Source of the DNA: Lachnospiraceae bacterium 28-4 | GTDB taxonomy: Bacteria > Bacillota > Clostridia > Lachnospirales > Lachnospiraceae | Assembly (NCBI GenBank): GCA_000403275.2 | Contig: KE159598.1 | Coordinates: forward strand, 956,356 to 1,020,355 | Length of the DNA: 64,000 nt | Direction: 5' to 3' | In this document: piece after piece, positions 3,226 through 61,424 of the stretch | How positions within the stretch are numbered: the stretch's first letter is position 1 | How the letters are laid out: each line of letters starts with the position of its first letter | The notes under the pieces: generated by a model | The model's input: the letters and a program-made list of their open reading frames with translations, nothing else | What the model was told of the DNA's origin: nothing | Database searches by the model: none | Program-made: the position numbers and the translations under genes

Positions 3226-3886
3226 CGATGTGTTAAAAAAATCATTTGTACAGGCGGCAACGGAAAGCATGAGCAGAGGGGATGCCATTGCAGCATTGGC
3301 AGCGGCATGTGTGATTGCCGTTTATATTTTCTTCATTTACCGGGTCATGACAAGAAAAACGTTCTATAACAAGAATTTTAATATTTCTTTGGTAGCGCTT
3401 GCCCTGATTACGACGGCGATTATCCTGTCTATTCAGTCCAGCGTAGTGATTTCACTCGGTATGGTGGGCGCATTGTCCATCGTTCGTTTTCGGACAGCAG
3501 TAAAGGAACCGATGGATCTGGTTTTCCTGTTCTGGTCTATCAGCGTAGGAATCATATGCGGCGCAGGCTTGTTTGAGATCGCCATCTTTGCTTCTTTGCT
3601 GATTACCGCAGCCATTATGGCGTTGGATCGTTTCCCCTCCACAAAGGCACCGATGCTCCTTGTTGTGGATTCGGCAGATTTGGACAGCGAGAAACAGATT
3701 ATGGAAACGCTGGAAGAATACAGCAGCCATAGCAAGGTGAAGGCAAGGAACATGGATGCGGAAAAACTGAACATGGTGATTGAAGTCCGTGTGAAGGAAG
3801 GCGCGGAATGCATCCGTGAGATCAGCAGGATAAGCGGTGTGAAAAATGTGTCCATGGTTTCACAGGAAGGGGAAGTTACCTTTTAA
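3215..3886 (+). CDS. DUF4956 domain membrane protein
   Basis: This 223-residue protein has three or four hydrophobic segments in its first 140 residues (about 23-45, 58-75, 80-95 and 105-135) and a soluble C-terminal tail of about 85 residues. The stretch GMVGALSIVRFRTAVKEPMDL is typical of the DUF4956 family. DUF4956 proteins commonly sit beside VTC-domain genes, as here. A shared envelope or polyphosphate-related role is suggested by context but not shown. The start overlaps the end of the VTC gene, with an AGGAGG site just upstream. It is the last gene before hairpin element A. Confidence 0.85.
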   Translation: MGFSDVLKKSFVQAATESMSRGDAIAALAAACVIAVYIFFIYRVMTRKTFYNKNFNISLVALALITTAIILSIQSSVVISLGMVGALSIVRFRTAVKEPMDLVFLFWSISVGIICGAGLFEIAIFASLLITAAIMALDRFPSTKAPMLLVVDSADLDSEKQIMETLEEYSSHSKVKARNMDAEKLNMVIEVRVKEGAECIREISRISGVKNVSMVSQEGEVTF

Positions 3887-3899
3887 GTAAAGCTTGGAC

Positions 3900-4294
3900 T
3901 TTGCATACGGAAATCATTTTTACAAAGGGCATGGCCCGCCAAAATCACGGCAGCCGCCTGGCAAGGGACGCAGGAGTTCCCGGCCGAACCTGCAAGGGGC
4001 GCCATTTTTTTGCTGTTGCGTGCCATCAGTCATTTCACTTATCAAATGGTTCAATAGAAAAGGGTAAAATTGCCCGGATGGCAATTTTAGGAAGTATAGG
4101 GCACGATGCTCGTTACTTCCGACCCGGTCGGTTCCATAACTTTTACCCATTTTATTAGTGAAATCTGATGGAAAGCTCCAGCAAAAAAATGGCGCCCCTT
4201 GCAGGTTCGGCCGGGAACTCCTGCGTCCCTTGCCAGGCGGCTGCCGTGATTTTGGCGGGCCATGCCCTTTGTAAAAATGATTTCCGCATGCAAA
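3900..4294. repeat. long hairpin element, copy A
   Basis: Positions 3900-4015 and 4179-4294 are reverse complements at 115 of 116 bases. Between them lies a core of about 160 bases. The core is bounded by CATTTCACTTATCAAATGG and CCATTTTATTAGTGAAATC, which also pair. Inside it are three stem-loops: AAAATTGCC/GGCAATTTT, GGAAGT/ACTTCC and CCGAC/GTCGG. The element fills the gap between DUF4956 and iorA; no protein is assigned. Copies B and C share the core but not the arm sequence. Confidence 0.85.
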
Positions 4295-4373
4295 ATCCGG
4301 CGCTTCTCTTTTTTTTTCTCTTTTTTTATGATAGAATAAAAAAATGTATAGATACAGGAAGGATGAATGCGAA

Positions 4374-6113
4374 ATGGCAGAAAAGAAGATTATGTTGGGA
4401 AACGAAGCGATTGCGCGGGGGGCATATGAAGCCGGAGTGAAGGTTTCCGCAGCTTATCCGGGCACGCCGAGTACGGAAATCAGCGAAAGTATTGTAAAAT
4501 ATGATGAGATATATGCGGAATGGTCGCCGAATGAAAAAGTGGCGATGGAGGTAGCGATTGGAGCTTCCATCAGCGGCGTCAGGGCAATGGCGTCCATGAA
4601 GCACGTAGGGGTCAATGTGGCGAGCGATCCGCTGTATACGGCTTCCTATACGGGAGTGGGCAGAGGGCTTGTGCTTGTGGCAGCCGATGATCCGGGGCTT
4701 TACAGTTCACAGAATGAACAGGATACAAGGTGCGTGGCGAGGGCGGCTCAGGTGCCGGTCTTAGAGCCTTCGGACAGCCAGGAAGCCAAGGATTTTATGA
4801 AATTTGCGTTCGAGATGAGCGAAAAATATGATACGCCGGTGATTGTGAGGACGACGACCAGATTATCCCATTCCCAGGGAATGGTTACGCTGGAGGAAAG
4901 ACAGGAAGTTCCTGACAAGCCTTACGAGAGAAACATCGGTAAATTTGTGATGATGCCGGGAATGGCAAAGGGAAGGCATGTATATGTGGAAAAACGTATG
5001 GAAGCCATGTCCGAAGACGGCGGCGGCTTTTTTGTAAACCGGGCGGAATATAAAGATACGTCGATCGGGTTTATTACAAGCGGAATTCCCTATCAATATG
5101 TAAAAGAAGTGTTTCCCGAAGCTTCCGTGTTGAAACTCGGTATGGTAAATCCGCTTCCGAGAAAAATGATCGAGGAATTTGCTTCGAAGGTGGATAAGCT
5201 GTACATATTTGAAGAGCTGGAGCCGGTTATAGAGGAGCAGGTAAAGGCATGGGGGATTCCGGCGGAAGGAAAGAACATTTTTACGAGGCAGGGAGAATAT
5301 AGTGCGAATATGCTGCGCCGCGTCCTGCTTTCGGAAGAAACGGAGGAAACGCAGCCGGCCCGGGTTCCCGCCCGCCCGCCGATTCTTTGTCCGGGCTGCC
5401 CGCACAGAAGCGTATTTTCTGTTTTAAAGAAGCTGAAGATACATGCGGCCGGGGATATCGGATGTTATACGCTCGGGGCGGTAGCGCCTCTTAGCGTTAT
5501 CGATACGACAATCTGTATGGGGGCGAGCATTTCTTCCCTTCACGGCATGGAGATGGCAAAGGGAAAAGAATATATAAAGAACTGGGTGGCTGTTATCGGC
5601 GATTCCACATTTATGCATACCGGAGTGAACTCCTTGATGAATACGGTGTATAATCAGGGAACGGGAACGATTATTATCGTAGACAATTCCACGACAGGAA
5701 TGACGGGGCATCAGGATCATGCGGCGACCGGTAAGACACTCAAGGGAAAAACGGTTCCTGCCATCAGCATTTACCATTTCTGCAAGGCCATCGGCATTGA
5801 ACATGTGGTGGAAGTGGATGCTTTTGACCTGGCCCTGCTGGAAAAGGTAATCAGGGAAGAGACGGAAAGGGACGAGGTTTCCGTTATTATTACGAAAGCT
5901 CCCTGTGTGCTGCTGAAAGGGAACCATTTCCCCGATGTGTGCGTTCCGGTATCTGAGAAATGTAAGAAATGCGGCGCTTGTTTGAAACCGGGCTGTCCGG
6001 CGCTGACAAAAAAAGAGGATGGAAGCATTGCCATCGACATTACGATGTGCAATGGATGCGGTCTCTGCATGCAGCTCTGTCCCTTTGATGCGATTGCAAA
6101 AGAGCCGAAATAA
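4374..6113 (+). CDS. iorA: indolepyruvate ferredoxin oxidoreductase, alpha subunit
   Basis: The enzyme oxidatively decarboxylates aryl pyruvates (indolepyruvate, phenylpyruvate) to aryl-acetyl-CoA and reduces ferredoxin. The 579-residue product begins with the pyruvate:ferredoxin-type domain (AYPGTPSTEISESI). A CPGCPHR motif opens the thiamine-diphosphate domain, with GDSTFMHTG near the cofactor. It ends in a ferredoxin domain with two cysteine clusters (CKKCGACLKPGCP and CNGCGLCMQLCP) for 4Fe-4S centres. The ATG at 4374 is chosen because AGGAAGG lies about 10 bases upstream; a longer frame from 4344 has no such site. iorB follows after 30 bases. Confidence 0.95.
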   Translation: MAEKKIMLGNEAIARGAYEAGVKVSAAYPGTPSTEISESIVKYDEIYAEWSPNEKVAMEVAIGASISGVRAMASMKHVGVNVASDPLYTASYTGVGRGLVLVAADDPGLYSSQNEQDTRCVARAAQVPVLEPSDSQEAKDFMKFAFEMSEKYDTPVIVRTTTRLSHSQGMVTLEERQEVPDKPYERNIGKFVMMPGMAKGRHVYVEKRMEAMSEDGGGFFVNRAEYKDTSIGFITSGIPYQYVKEVFPEASVLKLGMVNPLPRKMIEEFASKVDKLYIFEELEPVIEEQVKAWGIPAEGKNIFTRQGEYSANMLRRVLLSEETEETQPARVPARPPILCPGCPHRSVFSVLKKLKIHAAGDIGCYTLGAVAPLSVIDTTICMGASISSLHGMEMAKGKEYIKNWVAVIGDSTFMHTGVNSLMNTVYNQGTGTIIIVDNSTTGMTGHQDHAATGKTLKGKTVPAISIYHFCKAIGIEHVVEVDAFDLALLEKVIREETERDEVSVIITKAPCVLLKGNHFPDVCVPVSEKCKKCGACLKPGCPALTKKEDGSIAIDITMCNGCGLCMQLCPFDAIAKEPK

Positions 6114-8643: not shown

Positions 8644-10290
8644 ATGGAAAAAGTAGAAAACAGAGAGAACATGGAACATTCGGAAGGCATGGAAAGTAAA
8701 ATCAGTTATAGAAATTCGGCAATAGATGGAAGAATTATAAGAGCGGTAGAAGAAATGGGGTTTGAGACGATGACCCCTATTCAGGAACAGGCGATCCCTG
8801 TTATGTTGGAAGGAAGGGATCTGATCGGACAGGCCCAGACAGGAACGGGAAAGACTGCAGCTTTTGGGATTCCGATTATCCAGAAGATTGATCCGGAAGA
8901 AAGAGGATTACAGGCGATCATACTTTGCCCGACGAGAGAGCTGGCTATACAGGCGGCGGAAGAAATCCGACGGTTTGCAAAATATATGCATGAAATAAAA
9001 GTGCTGCCCGTATACGGCGGCCAGGATATATCGAGGCAGATCAGGGCGCTTTCCAAAGGAGTACAAGTTGTGGTAGGCACGCCGGGAAGGGTCATGGATC
9101 ATATGCGCCGCCATACGCTAAAAACCAATAAAGTGAGAATGGTTGTTTTGGATGAAGCGGATGAGATGTTGAATATGGGATTCCGGGAGGATATCGAGAC
9201 TATATTAAAAGATATGCCGGAAGAACGCCAGACAGCGCTTTTTTCAGCTACAATGCCAAGGCCGATTCTGGAAATCACAAAGGAATACCAGAAAGAGGAC
9301 GCGGAGTATATCAGAGTTACGCCAAAAGAGGTAACGATTCCTTTGATCAAACAGGCGTATTACCAGGTGCAGCGCAAAGATAAGGAAGAGGTGCTGACAA
9401 GGCTGATCGATTATTATCATCCGAAGCGTTCCCTTATTTTCTGCAATACAAAGCGGATGGTAGATGAATTGTCGGAACATTTGAAGGAGCGGGGATATCA
9501 GGCAGAAGGGCTGCACGGGGATTTGAGCCAGGGCCAGAGAGATACAGTTATGAACTTATTCCGGGGAGGAAGGATGGATATTCTGATCGCTACCGATGTG
9601 GCGGCGAGAGGTATCGATGTGGATGACGTGGAAGCGGTATTTAACTATGATGTGCCGGATGATATCGAATATTATGTCCATAGAATAGGACGTACCGGAA
9701 GAGCGGGAAAAGCAGGACGTTCCTTTACTCTGGTAGTAGGAAGGGAAATGTATAAAATAAGGGATATCGAAAGGGTATGCCATACGAAGATCAGGGAAAG
9801 GAATATACCGTCCGCAGCGGATATCACTTCCGTAAAGGCGGAAAAGGTCTTAGCGGAAGCGATCGATACCATACAGAACAAGAATCTGGATACGGCGATG
9901 GATTTCCTCAGGGAAAAGCTGGTGGACAGCGAATACACGGCGCTGGAGCTTGCAGCAGCTTTTATGAGAATGAAAATGGGGGATGATATCAAAGATATCA
10001 AAGTGGAAAAATTCAACCCCAAGGATCTCGTGTTCGGAAAAAGCGGACGCCGCCGCGGAAAGCGCGGAGGCAGGGGCGCTTCCTCAGGAAGATCCTCCGA
10101 GAAGGATAAAGGCGCGAATAAAGCATGGGGATCCGAAAGGGATAAGAACGGTAAAAGAAAAGGAAACGAAAAGGATAAGAGCAGCGGCAGCGGCAAGGGG
10201 AAATCCGGCGAGAAGGATAAGAGCAGACAGAGCAGAGACTTTGGCGAGATGTTCGTGGAAAAAAGCCGCAGACGCAGACGTAGATCATAA
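8644..10290 (+). CDS. DEAD-box ATP-dependent RNA helicase (CsdA/DeaD type)
   Basis: The 548-residue protein unwinds RNA, typically in ribosome assembly or cold adaptation. All helicase motifs are present: AQTGTGKT (about 62), PTRELA, TPGR, DEAD (about 170-173), SAT, ATDVAARGID and HRIGRTGRAG. After the two RecA-like domains (to about 370) comes a linker and then a strongly basic, low-complexity tail from about residue 455, rich in Arg, Gly, Lys and Ser. Such tails bind RNA. The ATG has only a weak ribosome site, and a promoter plus terminator lie in the leader. Confidence 0.93.
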   Translation: MEKVENRENMEHSEGMESKISYRNSAIDGRIIRAVEEMGFETMTPIQEQAIPVMLEGRDLIGQAQTGTGKTAAFGIPIIQKIDPEERGLQAIILCPTRELAIQAAEEIRRFAKYMHEIKVLPVYGGQDISRQIRALSKGVQVVVGTPGRVMDHMRRHTLKTNKVRMVVLDEADEMLNMGFREDIETILKDMPEERQTALFSATMPRPILEITKEYQKEDAEYIRVTPKEVTIPLIKQAYYQVQRKDKEEVLTRLIDYYHPKRSLIFCNTKRMVDELSEHLKERGYQAEGLHGDLSQGQRDTVMNLFRGGRMDILIATDVAARGIDVDDVEAVFNYDVPDDIEYYVHRIGRTGRAGKAGRSFTLVVGREMYKIRDIERVCHTKIRERNIPSAADITSVKAEKVLAEAIDTIQNKNLDTAMDFLREKLVDSEYTALELAAAFMRMKMGDDIKDIKVEKFNPKDLVFGKSGRRRGKRGGRGASSGRSSEKDKGANKAWGSERDKNGKRKGNEKDKSSGSGKGKSGEKDKSRQSRDFGEMFVEKSRRRRRRS

Positions 10291-15116: not shown

Positions 15117-15502
15117 TCATGGAAAATCAATCATAGTAGTCCGGGGCATGCCAGGGCGGAAGGGGCAGAAAAAAGGACGGCCGAAAGAGGACAGGCCGGA
15201 GCAGGGGGCAAATGGTTTTCCGTGCTGGTTCCGGGACATGGATTTTCTAAATATTCCGGTAAAGTAGTATCAGCCGGACGCAACCGCCCGCGATTCGCCA
15301 TCCGGGCTCATTGCGGGCTTTTGGTGACATCCGTGTCACCAAATTGCTGATTTTAGGCGGAATATTAAGAAAATCTCATTTCCCTGCACAAAGCAGCGGC
15401 AAAACCATTTGCCCCCTGCTCCGGCCCTCCCTCCTTCGGCCGTCTTTTTTTCTGCCCCTTCCGCCCTGGCGTGCCCCGGACTTCTATAATTGATTTCTAT
15501 GA
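15117..15502. repeat. long hairpin element, copy D (divergent class)
   Basis: Two arms of roughly 130 bases pair imperfectly around a branched core. Core stems include GATTTTCT/AGAAAATC, ATATTCCG/CGGAATAT, ATCAGC/GCTGAT, GCCCGC/GCGGGC and TTTGGTGACA/TGTCACCAAA. The outer ends carry AAAATCAAT and ATTGATTT, as in copy B. The core differs from copies A-C, and the arms have drifted more. The element fills the gap between two minus-strand operons. Confidence 0.75.
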
Positions 15503-19052: not shown

Positions 19053-19089
19053 GCAAACGCTGTCATGCTTTGCGAGCCAGTTTATTGTA
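19053..19089 (-). repeat. 37-bp dispersed repeat, single copy
   Basis: On the minus strand this matches the tandem 37-bp unit at 61345 (shared blocks CTGGCTCGCAAAGC and GACAGCGTTTG). It lies between the leader terminator and the ribosome site of the first ABC exporter gene. Confidence 0.7.
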
Positions 19090-19091
19090 AT

Positions 19092-19122
19092 AAAAAAGCG
19101 GTTCCCGTAAAAAGAACCGCTT
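19092..19122 (-). terminator. leader terminator (attenuator) of ABC exporter operon
   Basis: On the minus strand AAGCGGTTC pairs with GAACCGCTT and is followed by a run of T. It lies between the leader peptide gene and the first exporter gene, so full transcription requires readthrough. Confidence 0.8.
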
Positions 19123-25679: not shown

Positions 25680-25826
25680 ATGCCGCGTAAAAGAAAGGAA
25701 GAAGAAATTATAACAAAAGAAGATAAAAAAATAATCGGGCAGATTTCACAGATTTTAGTAAGAGAGAATCAGATTACCAGGGAGGAGTATATCCGGGTAC
25801 AGGAATTGCTGAGGGAAGAAGATTGA
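25680..25826 (+). CDS. small charged protein upstream of recombinase
   Basis: This 48-residue frame (starts MPRKRKEEEIITKEDKK) has AAGGA before the ATG. It is highly charged and mostly helical, with the stretch NQITREEYIRVQELL, which resembles the short-helix end (SHOCT-like) tails seen in small proteins beside recombinases. The function is unknown. Its stop codon is the start of pseudoknot repeat P1. Confidence 0.6.
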   Translation: MPRKRKEEEIITKEDKKIIGQISQILVRENQITREEYIRVQELLREED

Positions 25827-25922
25827 AAATTAAAAATTTTCAATCCCAAGTTTGTGTCTGCGCGGCATCCACAAACTTGAAAGCCAGGCTGGCTTTGCGC
25901 AATAAAGCCGCGCAGAAATGGA
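25822..25922 (+). repeat. pseudoknot repeat P1
   Basis: An A/T hairpin is followed by CAAGTTTGTG (25847-25856) pairing with CACAAACTTG (25870-25879). The loop TCTGCGCGGC (25857-25866) is exactly complementary to GCCGCGCAGA (25907-25916), which makes an H-type pseudoknot. The connecting stretch holds a small hairpin (AAGCC/GGCTT). Related copies lie at 36211 and 55703. Here the usual downstream ATG is replaced by ATAG. Confidence 0.75.
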
Positions 25923-29405: not shown

Positions 29406-29496
29406 AAGATTCCTCCAACTTCATATATGTTCATTATATGACGAGGGAAGAAAAATGGTGTGAATTGTAGTAATTAAGCGAAGGATTTCCCCATCC

Positions 29497-29842
29497 GCTG
29501 CAGGAAAATCAATGGCGGAGGCATGGAAAGGCCGTATAGCGGGAGCGGCGGAAACGGGCGGGCGGATAGCGGAACTGGTTTTCCATCTGTTGTTTCCACT
29601 CAGTAATTTCACTTATGAAATGGAGAAAAAACAGGGAAAATTGCCACGGAGGGCAATTTTAGGAAGCCAGGACATGGATGTCCTTGCTTCCGGCCCGTCC
29701 GGTTCGATATTCCATAGCCATTTCATTAGTGAAATCTGAGTGGAAACAACAGATGGAAAACCAGTTCCGCTATCCGCCCGCCCGTTTCCGCCGCTCCCGC
29801 TATACGGCCTTTCCATGCCTCCGCCATTGATTTTCCTGCGGC
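29497..29842. repeat. long hairpin element, copy B
   Basis: Positions 29497-29603 and 29736-29842 are reverse complements at 106 of 107 bases. The core between them has TTTCACTTATGAAATGG and CCATTTCATTAGTGAAATC, then AAAATTGCC/GGCAATTTT, GGAAGC/GCTTCC with inner GGACA/TGTCC, and CCGG/CCGG. The outer ends carry GAAAATCAAT and ATTGATTTTC. It fills most of the 515 bases between the divergent ABC ATPase and argH genes. Confidence 0.85.
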
Positions 29843-29856
29843 AGACGGGGAAAAGA

Positions 29857-34190: not shown

Positions 34191-36200
34191 ATGGAAAAAA
34201 ACTTATATATAGCGGAAAAACCAAGTGTTGCCAGAGAATTTGCGAAAGCGCTGAAATTAAATATGAGCAACAAGGATGGTTATATGGAATCCGAAGAAGC
34301 GGTCGTTACTTGGTGTGTAGGACATTTGGTGACGATGAGTTATCCGGAAGTATATGATGAAAAATATAAAAGATGGTCGTTATCCACGCTGCCTTTTATT
34401 CCGGATGAATTTAAATACGAAGTGATTGAAAATGTAAGGAAACAGTTCGGGATTGTAAGCGGGCTGTTAAACCGCCCCGATATAGGAACAATCTATGTAT
34501 GCACTGACTCCGGGCGGGAAGGAGAATATATTTACCGCCTGGTGGAACGGCAGGCCGGGGTGAAAGGAAAAAAGAGAAAGCGCGTCTGGATCGACTCCCA
34601 GACGGAGGAGGAGATATTAAGAGGAATACGTGAGGCTAAAGATTTGTCGGAATATGATAATCTTGGCGCTGCCGCTTATTTAAGAGCCAAAGAAGATTAT
34701 CTGATGGGAATAAACTTTTCACGTGTCCTTACTTTAAAGTATGGGAACTCCATTAAAAGTTATCTGAAGACGGACCGGGCGGTGATTTCGGTCGGCCGGG
34801 TCATGACTTGTGTTCTTGGCATGGTGGTGAACAGGGAAAGGGAGATCAGGGAATTTGTAAAAACACCTTTCTATAAAGTATCGGCCAGAGTGGAATCGGA
34901 AGAAAAAGAGTTCGACTGTGAATGGAAAGCGGTGGAAGGAACGAAATATTATGGATCGCCGCTGTTATATAAGGAAAACGGGTTTAAAGAGAGGAAAACG
35001 GCGGAAGAGCTGGGCGCCTGGCTGGAACAGGAGCCAGTGCCAGCACCTGTCCTGGAGGCAGTAGAGAAGAAAAAAGAAACAAAAAATCCGCCGCTTTTGT
35101 ATAATCTGGCGGAACTGCAAAACGACTGCTCCAAATATTTTAAAATAAGCCCGGATGAAACATTGCGTATCGTGCAGGAATTATACGAGAAAAAGATGAC
35201 GACTTATCCGAGAACTGACGCCAGGGTATTGTCCAGCGCAGTGGCGAAGGAGATTTACAAAAATATTAACGGATTGAAAAATTATCCGCAGACAGCGGCT
35301 TTGGCCGAAGAAGTGCTGCAAAGCCAGGCATATAAAAATATTGCTAAAACAAGATATGTAAACGATAAACAAATCACGGATCATTATGCTATCATTCCTA
35401 CCGGACAGGGAATTGGAAGTCTGAACGGGCTGAATGAGACGGCAGCAAAAGTTTATGAGACCATCGCCAGGCGTTTTTTAAGCATATTCTATCCGGCGGC
35501 CGTATACCGGAAGATATCCCTCCGAATCGGGATCAAAGAAGAGAAATTTTTTGCTAATTTTAAGGTGCTGGAGGAAGAAGGATATTTAAAGGCGGCAGTT
35601 TTTTCCTTTCTAAAAAAGAAAGAAGAGAAGGAGAAAGAGGACGGGGAAAACGGAGCCGCGGATACGAAGGATCCCGGGTTTATCGCGATGGTACAGCGGT
35701 TGAAGAAGGGTACGGTCTTCCATTTAAAAGGGATGGAAATCAAGGAAGGGGAAACATCGCCGCCAAAGCGTTATAATTCAGGAACGATGATACTGACCAT
35801 GGAAAATGCCGGCCAGTTTATCGAGGATGAGGAATTAAGGGCCCAGATCAAAGGAAGCGGTATCGGCACTTCCGCCACAAGGGCTGAAATATTAAAAAAG
35901 CTTGTCCATATCAAATATTTGGATTTGAATAAAAAAACGCAGATCATTACGCCTACCCTTATGGGAGAAATGATTTATGATGTGGTGGCAGGATCGATCA
36001 GGCCTTTGCTTGATCCTGCACTTACGGCGAGCTGGGAAAAGGGGCTGACGCTGGTGGCAGAGGGGAATATTACGGAAAAGGAATATATGGCGAAACTGGA
36101 TGATTTTGTGAGCAGACGGACCAATATGGTAAAACAGATGGGAAACCAGGGCTTTTTGTTCCGGCAGTTCGACCATGCGGCCCAGAATTATAAAAAATAG
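34191..36200 (+). CDS. topB: DNA topoisomerase III (type IA)
   Basis: The 669-residue enzyme relaxes or decatenates DNA. The N-terminal TOPRIM domain shows YIAEKPSVAREFAKAL and CTDSGREGEYIYR. The catalytic Tyr is in KKMTTYPRTDARVL (about residue 340). ITDHYAIIPTG and GIGTSATRAEIL are conserved. There is no C-terminal zinc-finger block, as is usual for TopB. A Lys/Glu-rich insertion lies at about residues 465-490. GAGGAAGG precedes the ATG by 11 bases. Confidence 0.92.
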   Translation: MEKNLYIAEKPSVAREFAKALKLNMSNKDGYMESEEAVVTWCVGHLVTMSYPEVYDEKYKRWSLSTLPFIPDEFKYEVIENVRKQFGIVSGLLNRPDIGTIYVCTDSGREGEYIYRLVERQAGVKGKKRKRVWIDSQTEEEILRGIREAKDLSEYDNLGAAAYLRAKEDYLMGINFSRVLTLKYGNSIKSYLKTDRAVISVGRVMTCVLGMVVNREREIREFVKTPFYKVSARVESEEKEFDCEWKAVEGTKYYGSPLLYKENGFKERKTAEELGAWLEQEPVPAPVLEAVEKKKETKNPPLLYNLAELQNDCSKYFKISPDETLRIVQELYEKKMTTYPRTDARVLSSAVAKEIYKNINGLKNYPQTAALAEEVLQSQAYKNIAKTRYVNDKQITDHYAIIPTGQGIGSLNGLNETAAKVYETIARRFLSIFYPAAVYRKISLRIGIKEEKFFANFKVLEEEGYLKAAVFSFLKKKEEKEKEDGENGAADTKDPGFIAMVQRLKKGTVFHLKGMEIKEGETSPPKRYNSGTMILTMENAGQFIEDEELRAQIKGSGIGTSATRAEILKKLVHIKYLDLNKKTQIITPTLMGEMIYDVVAGSIRPLLDPALTASWEKGLTLVAEGNITEKEYMAKLDDFVSRRTNMVKQMGNQGFLFRQFDHAAQNYKK

Positions 36201-36210
36201 ACGAAGGAAA

Positions 36211-36295
36211 ATCCGGGTTTGTGTCCGTGCGGCATCCGCAAACTTGTTCATGAGCCGTTCCGGCAAAACTGAGAAAAAGCCGTGCAGAAATGAGG
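36211..36295 (+). repeat. pseudoknot repeat P2
   Basis: CGGGTTTGTG pairs with CGCAAACTTG, and the loop TCCGTGCGGC can pair with GCCGTGCAGA (36279-36288), partly through G-U pairs. Compared with P1 and P3 several bases differ but most pairing is kept. It begins 10 bases after the topB stop and ends at the GAGG ribosome site of the hexapeptide gene. Confidence 0.65.
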
Positions 36296-40827: not shown

Positions 40828-40843
40828 TATAATATAAGCTGTA

Positions 40844-41207
40844 AAAATCCATTCTTTGCAAGCGCCATAGCGGGAGGGAAACGAAAAGAGGGCAGGAGGA
40901 AAGCGGACGGGGAAGGGGCGGCGGAAGAAGGCGTTTTTCTGCTGTTGCGTACAATCAGTCATTTCACTTATGAAATGGTCAATGACCAGAGCGAAACCGC
41001 CAGGGATGGCGGTTTCAGGGAGCGCAGGACAGGATGTCCGTTGCTCCCGGCTCGTCCGGCTGGCTGCCATCTACCCATTTCATTAGTGAAATCTGATTGG
41101 AAGCTCCAGCAGAAAAACGCCTTCTTCCGCCGCCCCTTCCCCGTCTGCTTTCCTCCTGCCCTCTTTTCACTATCATTCTTTTATAACACTTACAAAAAAT
41201 GGATTTT
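40844..41207. repeat. long hairpin element, copy C
   Basis: Positions 40883-40944 and 41107-41168 are reverse complements at 61 of 62 bases. Further out pairing is poor until AAAATCCATT/AATGGATTTT at the ends. The core has CATTTCACTTATGAAATGG and CCATTTCATTAGTGAAATC, then GAAACCGCC/GGCGGTTTC, GGGAGC/GCTCCC with inner GGACA/TGTCC, and CCGG/CCGG. The stems match copies A and B but several base pairs are replaced by other pairs. With the terminator it explains the gap before metH. Confidence 0.85.
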
Positions 41208-41310
41208 CGTGCGGTAAAGCGGATTTCAGTTGTAGTTTTTTTTGTTTTATGATAGCATAGATTCCATCAGTAATGAAATTTATGATAAAAATATGGAATT
41301 TGGAAGGGGT

Positions 41311-55656: not shown

Positions 55657-55702
55657 AAAAGCGGCTGCAGACTAAGGACACTTTTTTATAGAGCAGGAAA
55701 GA

Positions 55703-55795
55703 AGATTGAAAATAGAAGACTTTCAATTCCAAGTTTGTGTCTGCGCGGCGTCCACAAACTTGAAATGCACAATAAAGCCGCGCAGAAACGGGGTG
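55703..55795 (+). repeat. pseudoknot repeat P3
   Basis: A hairpin TTGAAAAT/TTTCAA is followed by CAAGTTTGTG (55730-55739) pairing with CACAAACTTG (55753-55762). Its loop TCTGCGCGGC (55740-55749) is exactly complementary to GCCGCGCAGA (55777-55786). The last strand ends three bases before the GGGGTG ribosome site of leuD, so folding could affect its translation. Confidence 0.75.
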
Positions 55796-61313: not shown

Positions 61314-61342
61314 AGGGCTGTCTTGTATGAGACAGCTCTTAT
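61314..61342 (+). terminator. weak terminator after zapA
   Basis: GGGCTGTC pairs with GACAGCTC around an 8-base loop, with only a short T-rich tail. Confidence 0.5.
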
Positions 61343-61344
61343 TA

Positions 61345-61424
61345 CAATAAGCTGGCTCGCAAAGCGCGACAGCGTTTGTTGCAATAAGCTGGCTCGCAAA
61401 GCGTGACAGTGTTTGTTACAATAA
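61345..61424 (+). repeat. 37-bp tandem repeat, two full copies plus start of a third
   Basis: CAATAA recurs at 61345, 61382 and 61419, a period of 37. Units share CTGGCTCGCAAAGCG and TTTGTT and differ at a few C/T positions. The same unit occurs once, inverted, at 19053-19089. There is no spacer variation, so this is not a CRISPR array. Confidence 0.8.

Follow-up and report, generated by a model that had tools for sequence, protein, structure and literature searches.

A MITE-like element with a TwoAYGGAY RNA core and long arms that match within each copy but, for most copies, not between copies

The long hairpins found in the window (the whole 64,000-nucleotide stretch of DNA analysed here) combine three known things in one element: an Rfam RNA, MITE-like mobility and arm homogenisation. 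The core of the element is TwoAYGGAY (Rfam RF01731), a structured-RNA candidate without assigned function, and in this lineage the elements are MITE-like, with conserved tips and 9-bp target duplications. We consider it probable that their arms are homogenised by DNA copying between arms, either by template switching or by conversion within the hairpin.

Hairpins in the window

The initial annotation of this DNA described three hairpins, copies A, B and C, whose near-perfect arms enclose a common core. The arms of copy A are real (115/116 matches between 3900-4015 and 4179-4294; 128/134 for the best ungapped arms, 3896-4029 and 4165-4298), and so is the hairpin of copy B, given as 106/107 and found here with best ungapped arms matching at 115/118 positions; the fold of copy B (29501-29838) has an energy of -282.9 kcal/mol (z = -29.7 against 100 shuffles). 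The hairpin of copy C, given as 61/62, is real as well, with inner arms matching at 71/76 positions (40883-40958 and 41093-41168); over 115 nt its self-match is only 83%: the outer arm parts have diverged and the left tip is degenerate, with 6 mismatches. A fourth hairpin, copy D, had been missed; its arms match at 88/96 positions, and one of its tips is degenerate (6 mismatches). That A, B and C have a common core is borne out by a comparison of repeats in the window and by an Rfam scan, and the cores of all four copies pass the RF01731 gathering cut-off (Table 1). The core of copy A was matched in an Rfam scan of 3800-4400 and is absent from the match lists for the whole window and the whole assembly. 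Copy A also gave a match to MIR2646 (70 bits, cut-off 245), rejected as a by-product of the hairpin.

Table 1. Positions in the window of the four elements and their RF01731 cores
Feature	Position	Strand	Remarks
Copy A, tip to tip	3906..4288	+	palindrome 3896-4298; both tips recognised; tip coordinates by eye
Core of copy A, RF01731 TwoAYGGAY	4016..4178	+	57.3 bits (gathering cut-off 43)
Copy B, tip to tip	29501..29838	+	arms 29486-29603 and 29736-29853; 5 mismatches per tip
Core of copy B, RF01731	29588..29751	+	85.4 bits
Copy C, tip to tip	40840..41211	+	arms 40844-40958 and 41093-41207; tips by eye
Core of copy C, RF01731	40945..41106	+	81.6 bits
Copy D, tip to tip	15118..15501	-	arms 15124-15219 and 15401-15496; subfamily T1; tips by eye
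Core of copy D, RF01731	15226..15391	-	115.4 bits

Two other dispersed repeats were seen in the window. One, of 71 nt, occurs three times (25812-25882, 36179-36249 and 55695-55765), the later copies being 62% and 90% identical to the first, and holds an inverted CAAGTTTGTG/CACAAACTTG. The other, of ~40 nt, has three copies (19054-19094 and 61339-61415), one of them inverted and 42 kb from the close pair.

Copy number and spread of the core

63 matches to RF01731 were found in the assembly that contains the window (G000), 62 of them above the cut-off; with copy A there are 64 scored copies. About 20 further copies in G000, recognised by tip pattern and DNA similarity on reading the match lists, were left out of the arm statistics, and the copy numbers are lower bounds because some copies escape the first step of the family search. 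A relative (G009; 82-91% identity to G000 over the main syntenic matches) gave 53 matches, one of which was left out, and 30 of the 38 matches of a further search were analysed. There are two core subfamilies, T1 and T2, each present in both genomes. Rfam labels RF01731 as cis-regulatory. A crude ORF call places 60 of 61 copies outside ORFs, and among the 55 with a gene on each side the downstream gene is on the strand of the element in 34 and not in 21.

The core was also searched for across Lachnospiraceae, a check proposed with the initial annotation. At E <= 1e-6, RF01731 is found in 43 of 298 sampled genomes (41 of 280 genera, counting G000 and G009); 37 of these genomes hold at least two matches, with no more than nine scored in any genome, and it is absent from all 14 control genomes in the same search. 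The RF01731 model has 168 positions and ends where the arms begin. Among 20 copies from other genera (one per genus), pairing continues for 25-196 nt past the model in 19, a count made without a shuffle control; in the remaining copy (L231) the pairing is distorted by a contig end. Arm pairing in these copies is less perfect than in G000 and G009. Arms beyond the model may thus be a wider feature of the RF01731 family.

Arms alike within a copy and mostly unlike between copies

Within-copy arm identity, another quantity that the initial annotation proposed to compute, is 95.2% (495 mismatches at 10248 aligned positions outside the core, in 106 copies), a figure that is inflated because arms were delimited by best local self-alignment and 10 of 116 copies, with absent, short or weak arms, were set aside. 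Whole arms are 57-158 nt long (median 99). Between copies, the arms of A, B and C have no visible similarity, as first reported: their mutual scores are 11.1-19.1, against a shuffle maximum of 19.6. We also compared arm middles, with tips and inner junctions cut off (six of the 106 copies were too short for this and were excluded). The best partners of A, B, C and D among 100 copies then score 17.5, 19.3, 24.0 and 25.5, against a dinucleotide-shuffle maximum of 29.1, and 84 of 4950 pairs beat all 6000 dinucleotide shuffles. The earlier statement that arms are not conserved therefore holds for most middles, which are unrelated, but not for the 35 of 100 copies that have a recognisable arm relative. 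A looser relatedness count (969 of 5565 pairs; 1500 mononucleotide shuffles) was discarded as inflated by the conserved tips and junctions. We infer that the unrelatedness of most arm middles reflects fast divergence under copying.

Arm middles are richer in GC (0.676) than cores (0.456) and flanks (0.419), and the mismatch rate, 2-4% close to the core, reaches 6-9% in the outer arm; both features are as expected from GC-biased repair of palindromes. Such repair does not account for the purine richness of the left arm (the one 5' of the core), which holds in 99 of 101 copies (mean purine share 0.72; five of the 106 copies, with middles too short, were excluded), in T1 and T2 and in both genomes, without the sequence being fixed. 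The purine share of the left arm in the 20 copies from other genera is 0.38-0.69.

One copy (L126, G000:C1:1396341-1396723) has matching arms and a core that aligns without gaps to the T1 consensus, yet differs from it at 68 of 167 positions: A is kept at 44 of 47 positions, C at 27 of 37, G at 18 of 42 and T at 10 of 41, with T spread over the four bases and no other base changed to T. No second core of this kind was found in 16 genomes of the genus (231-base search). Hypermutation, odd selection or an artefact may be behind it.

Changes shared by both arms

The proposal that arms are copied or corrected inside each element is supported by how related copies differ. In 14 disjoint pairs of related copies (arm score of at least 45), 155 columns differ with both arms agreeing, 106 differ in one arm and 33 otherwise; the both-arm share is 0.59, against 0.008-0.067 in four-lineage simulations of independent evolution without copying. 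Indels of at least 3 nt in these pairs are in both arms in seven cases and in one arm in four. Five of the seven are internal (3, 6, 6, 12 and 26 nt) and identical in both arms; the other two are doubtful, one being at the outer tip and one having unequal letters. Selection for pairing cannot easily explain identical indels of 6-26 bases.

Tips, target duplications and mobility

The short end motif noticed at the outset, AAAATCAAT, is part of a conserved tip near CACGGAAATCAATTTT, and the outer tip is common to T1 and T2. Both tips are recognisable in 64 of the 106 copies in G000 and G009 (at most 5/16 mismatches to either of two consensus forms, within ~40 nt around the arm end), and in 30 of the 106 both are within 2 mismatches; the 42 copies without two recognisable tips were excluded from the duplication and flank tests. 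9-bp target duplications matching at 8/9 positions or better flank 18 of the 64 two-tip copies (six are perfect), against 0.35 expected. Among 21 combinations of length and offset only the 9-bp register stands out (length 7 at offset -1: 20 against 0.5; length 11 at +1: 4 against 0.05). A wider scan at the same threshold (>=8/9) gave 11 of 62 for G000 (control 3.1%), 13 of 45 for G009 (6.8%), 9 of 14 for genome G004 (5.8%) and 2 of 14 for genome G008 (3.9%). The copies in the window show no target duplication: the match is 1/9 for A and 4/9 for B, and none was seen by eye for C and D.

Comparison with relatives for empty sites had likewise been suggested. Copy D is absent in G009, copy C is absent there along with ~115 nt of its left flank, and copies A and B are represented by remnants of outer arms; a single undisturbed target copy was found at none of the G009 junctions of these four sites. 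At another locus, a solo tip in G000 corresponds to a full copy in G009. We found no autonomous partner among the tip matches with at most one mismatch in the own genome (20 stretches), and by eye recognised no transposase among the ORFs at two single-tip sites.

L131 (G000:C3:679136-679185) is a 50-bp hairpin made up of two tips, with neither arms nor core between them, and resembles what is left of copy A in G009. L121 (G000:C1:459227-459444) has one complete arm, followed by a truncated core that runs straight into the opposite tip. Elements also occur in close pairs: all nine pairs that we noticed in the G000 and G009 lists, with starts less than 450 bp apart, have the minus-strand copy before the plus-strand copy, i.e. 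are divergent (G000: C3:653045-653596, C1:1195130-1195730, C2:131313-131842, C1:1031191-1031713, C3:333495-333993 and C3:179914-180512; G009: C2:2554-3157, C60:825-1383 and C30:9-549). Similar close pairs are among the matches listed for genomes G013, G021 and G043.

Correction in place or at transposition

Self-match of ~95% persists in copies whose target duplication has decayed, in line with the suggestion that arms are corrected. Arm mismatch is 5.9% in the six copies with a 9/9 duplication, 2.9% at 8/9 (12 copies), 4.4% at 6-7/9 (12 copies) and 4.6% at 5/9 or below (34 copies); the 42 copies without recognisable tips have 5.6%. Over the 64 two-tip copies arm mismatch is uncorrelated with duplication decay (rho 0.13, p = 0.30). 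Among copies with clean tips, it is 3.3% where the duplication match averages 8.2 of 9 and 4.8% where it averages 3.4. If arms were matched at transposition only, arms and duplication would decay alike, and they do not; correction thus seems to work on resident copies, in place. A duplication may, on the other hand, have been lost by flank deletion and not through age. At the site of copy A, G009 has a short hairpin in which, by eye, both arms are changed alike relative to both G000 arms.

Loci occupied in two genomes bear on the same question. Out of 15 two-sided co-located pairs, four were picked as orthologous (core rank 1-3 of 145) and 11 were not counted. The four have 74 columns that differ in both arms against 14 that differ in one (the fourth pair, G004/G008, adds only 2 and 1). 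Their indels of at least 3 nt comprise four in both arms (3, 10, 16 and 47 nt, the longest amounting to a shortened arm) and a single one in one arm. In one of the four pairs both flanks adjoin the element directly; each of the other three has a flank that begins only after a gap of at least 120 bases in at least one genome. Compared with 999 background pairs, the whole arms of the three G000/G009 pairs are matched or exceeded by 8, 51 and 29, but their arm middles are not above background (166, 469 and 92 of 999 as high), so replaced arms or separate insertions would yield the same count. We therefore regard the counts at orthologous loci as weak support for what would be in-place change.

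Among the 11 other co-located pairs, four join a T1 with a T2 copy, which points to preferred sites or replacement. One co-located pair is in inverted orientation with both flanks flush. A reading of the shared sites as full arm turnover was withdrawn after the co-located pairs had been compared, and convergent gene ends as the cause of shared sites are not supported, being seen at only five of 55 copies.

Proposed mechanism and alternatives

The element is laid out as a conserved tip, an arm of free sequence, the TwoAYGGAY core as spacer, the inverted arm and the inverted tip. It would be spread by a transposase acting in trans, leaving the observed duplications behind. Under homogenisation by copying between arms, the long inverted repeat would fold as a hairpin or cruciform, and DNA synthesis, in replication or repair, would write one arm onto the other, so that a mutation in an arm, even a multi-base indel, is either erased or spread to both arms. 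A copy could then keep a self-match of ~95% even as its arms drift away from the arms of other copies, in most cases until no relationship is recognisable. Expected by-products would be inversion of the spacer, of which a possible case was seen, and partial deletion of the palindrome, of which there are several remnants. No such copying event was seen directly.

We give a small chance to compensatory selection, in which pairing of the arms, as RNA helix or DNA hairpin, would be needed and matching mutations would be selected singly. The core is indeed a structured RNA, and mismatches in its stems favour G-U over A-C (59:29), significantly in T2 (36:14, p = 0.003; T1 23:15, p = 0.26); pairing past the model in nearly all copies from other genera (19/20, again counted without a shuffle control) and the purine bias kept in the left arm would fit as well. 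In the arms, however, G-U and A-C mismatches are equally common (186 and 202, p = 0.45), so that RNA-level selection there is not supported, and independent compensation is a very unlikely source of the identical both-arm indels of 6, 6, 12 and 26 nt. That most differences between related copies sit in both arms would also follow if arms were renewed at transposition only, each jump copying arm onto arm and the resident copy then decaying. Resident copies do carry one-arm changes, and the orthologous loci gave no firm in-place change; this explanation is nevertheless quite unlikely, given that arm mismatch does not rise with duplication decay and that the short hairpin at the copy A site appears by eye to have changed in both arms in place.

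The initial annotation had also offered capture at insertion, which we take to mean that flanking or other host DNA is inverted to form the arms. As a general origin this is not supported, because the conserved tips are external to the variable arms and 35 of 100 copies have arms in common with copies located elsewhere, and we find it highly improbable even though 65 of 100 copies have no recognisable arm relative and 4 of 64 have a palindrome reaching past the tip into flanking DNA (>=8/10; 0.00 expected). At a looser cut-off such flank palindromes occur in none of the 18 copies with good duplications, which counts against capture, and in 6 of the 34 with decayed ones; we also read these palindromes as favouring copying between arms. 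In two of the four cases (A and B), part of the flank repeat is also present in a relative that lacks a full element, and a comparison of the case at C1:1511898 with G009 was not decisive, as the site differs. Conserved tips, target duplications, two subfamilies and clusters of related arms are what an ordinary MITE family with long terminal repeats would show, its copies being young offspring of many old masters and its arms unremarkable. The masters, though, would themselves need to diverge and yet remain self-matched, and self-matched arms persist in copies with decayed duplications, which makes this barely credible. A separate conjecture, very unlikely in our view, is that the element has a dedicated, error-prone copying process of its own (e.g. 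reverse transcription or hairpin-primed synthesis) which, in place of ordinary repair, rewrites both arms and core; its traces would be the left-arm purine bias, the middles unrecognisable between most copies and the scrambled core of L126.

Comparison with known systems

An Rfam structured-RNA candidate is now seen, at least in this lineage, to be the core of a mobile element, and about a hundred long palindromes in two relatives provide a natural series for counting arm-to-arm copying. It is an old question how perfect stems outlast mutation, by compensatory selection or by copying; since the arms carry no sign of RNA-level selection, the two are separable here. The initial annotation knew of no described element with these properties: this does not hold for the core, which is in Rfam, and does hold for the arms, the mobility and the concerted change, which were not found in the papers that were searched. 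In freely readable titles, abstracts and passages on the RNA, on long hairpins, on arm conversion and on MITEs with structured RNA, nothing was found that describes the present combination, and the literature search returned nothing for the drum motif.

MITEs are non-autonomous DNA transposons. The elements are like them in being short and non-coding, with inverted tips, 9-bp target duplications, many copies and a location mostly outside ORFs, and unlike them in having arms that vary per copy yet self-match and a structured RNA at the centre; the partner transposase is putative. Integron attC sites likewise have complementary arms without sequence conservation between sites, and REP/REPIN sequences are dispersed hairpins; in contrast to both, the arms here are much longer and nearly perfect.

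TwoAYGGAY itself was reported from human gut, gamma-proteobacteria and Clostridiales as 'probably' an RNA and probably not cis-regulatory (PMC2864571). The elements are like that RNA in that 62 of the 63 listed matches, and copy A, score above its cut-off; the row on TwoAYGGAY in that paper is without the long variable arms, tips, target duplications and 60 or more copies per genome found here. Template switching is described as homogenising inverted repeats and inverting their spacers, the homogenisation of long repeats being well studied (PMC8604942), and a second study proposes that RNA hairpins arise and are maintained by it (PMC8794818). Common to the passages seen of these two studies and to our elements, as we interpret them, are the copying of one arm from the other, spacer inversion and compensatory jumps of several bases (PMC8604942, PMC8794818); those passages concern short repeats in yeast genes and RNA stems, whereas here arms of 57-158 nt belong to a dispersed bacterial element. 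Palindromes of the primate X chromosome, in which GC-biased conversion is described as raising GC (PMC8981503), resemble the elements in their near-identical arms, there subject to conversion, and in their raised arm GC; the elements differ from the palindromes of that account in their length of ~100 nt, their bacterial host and their many dispersed copies.
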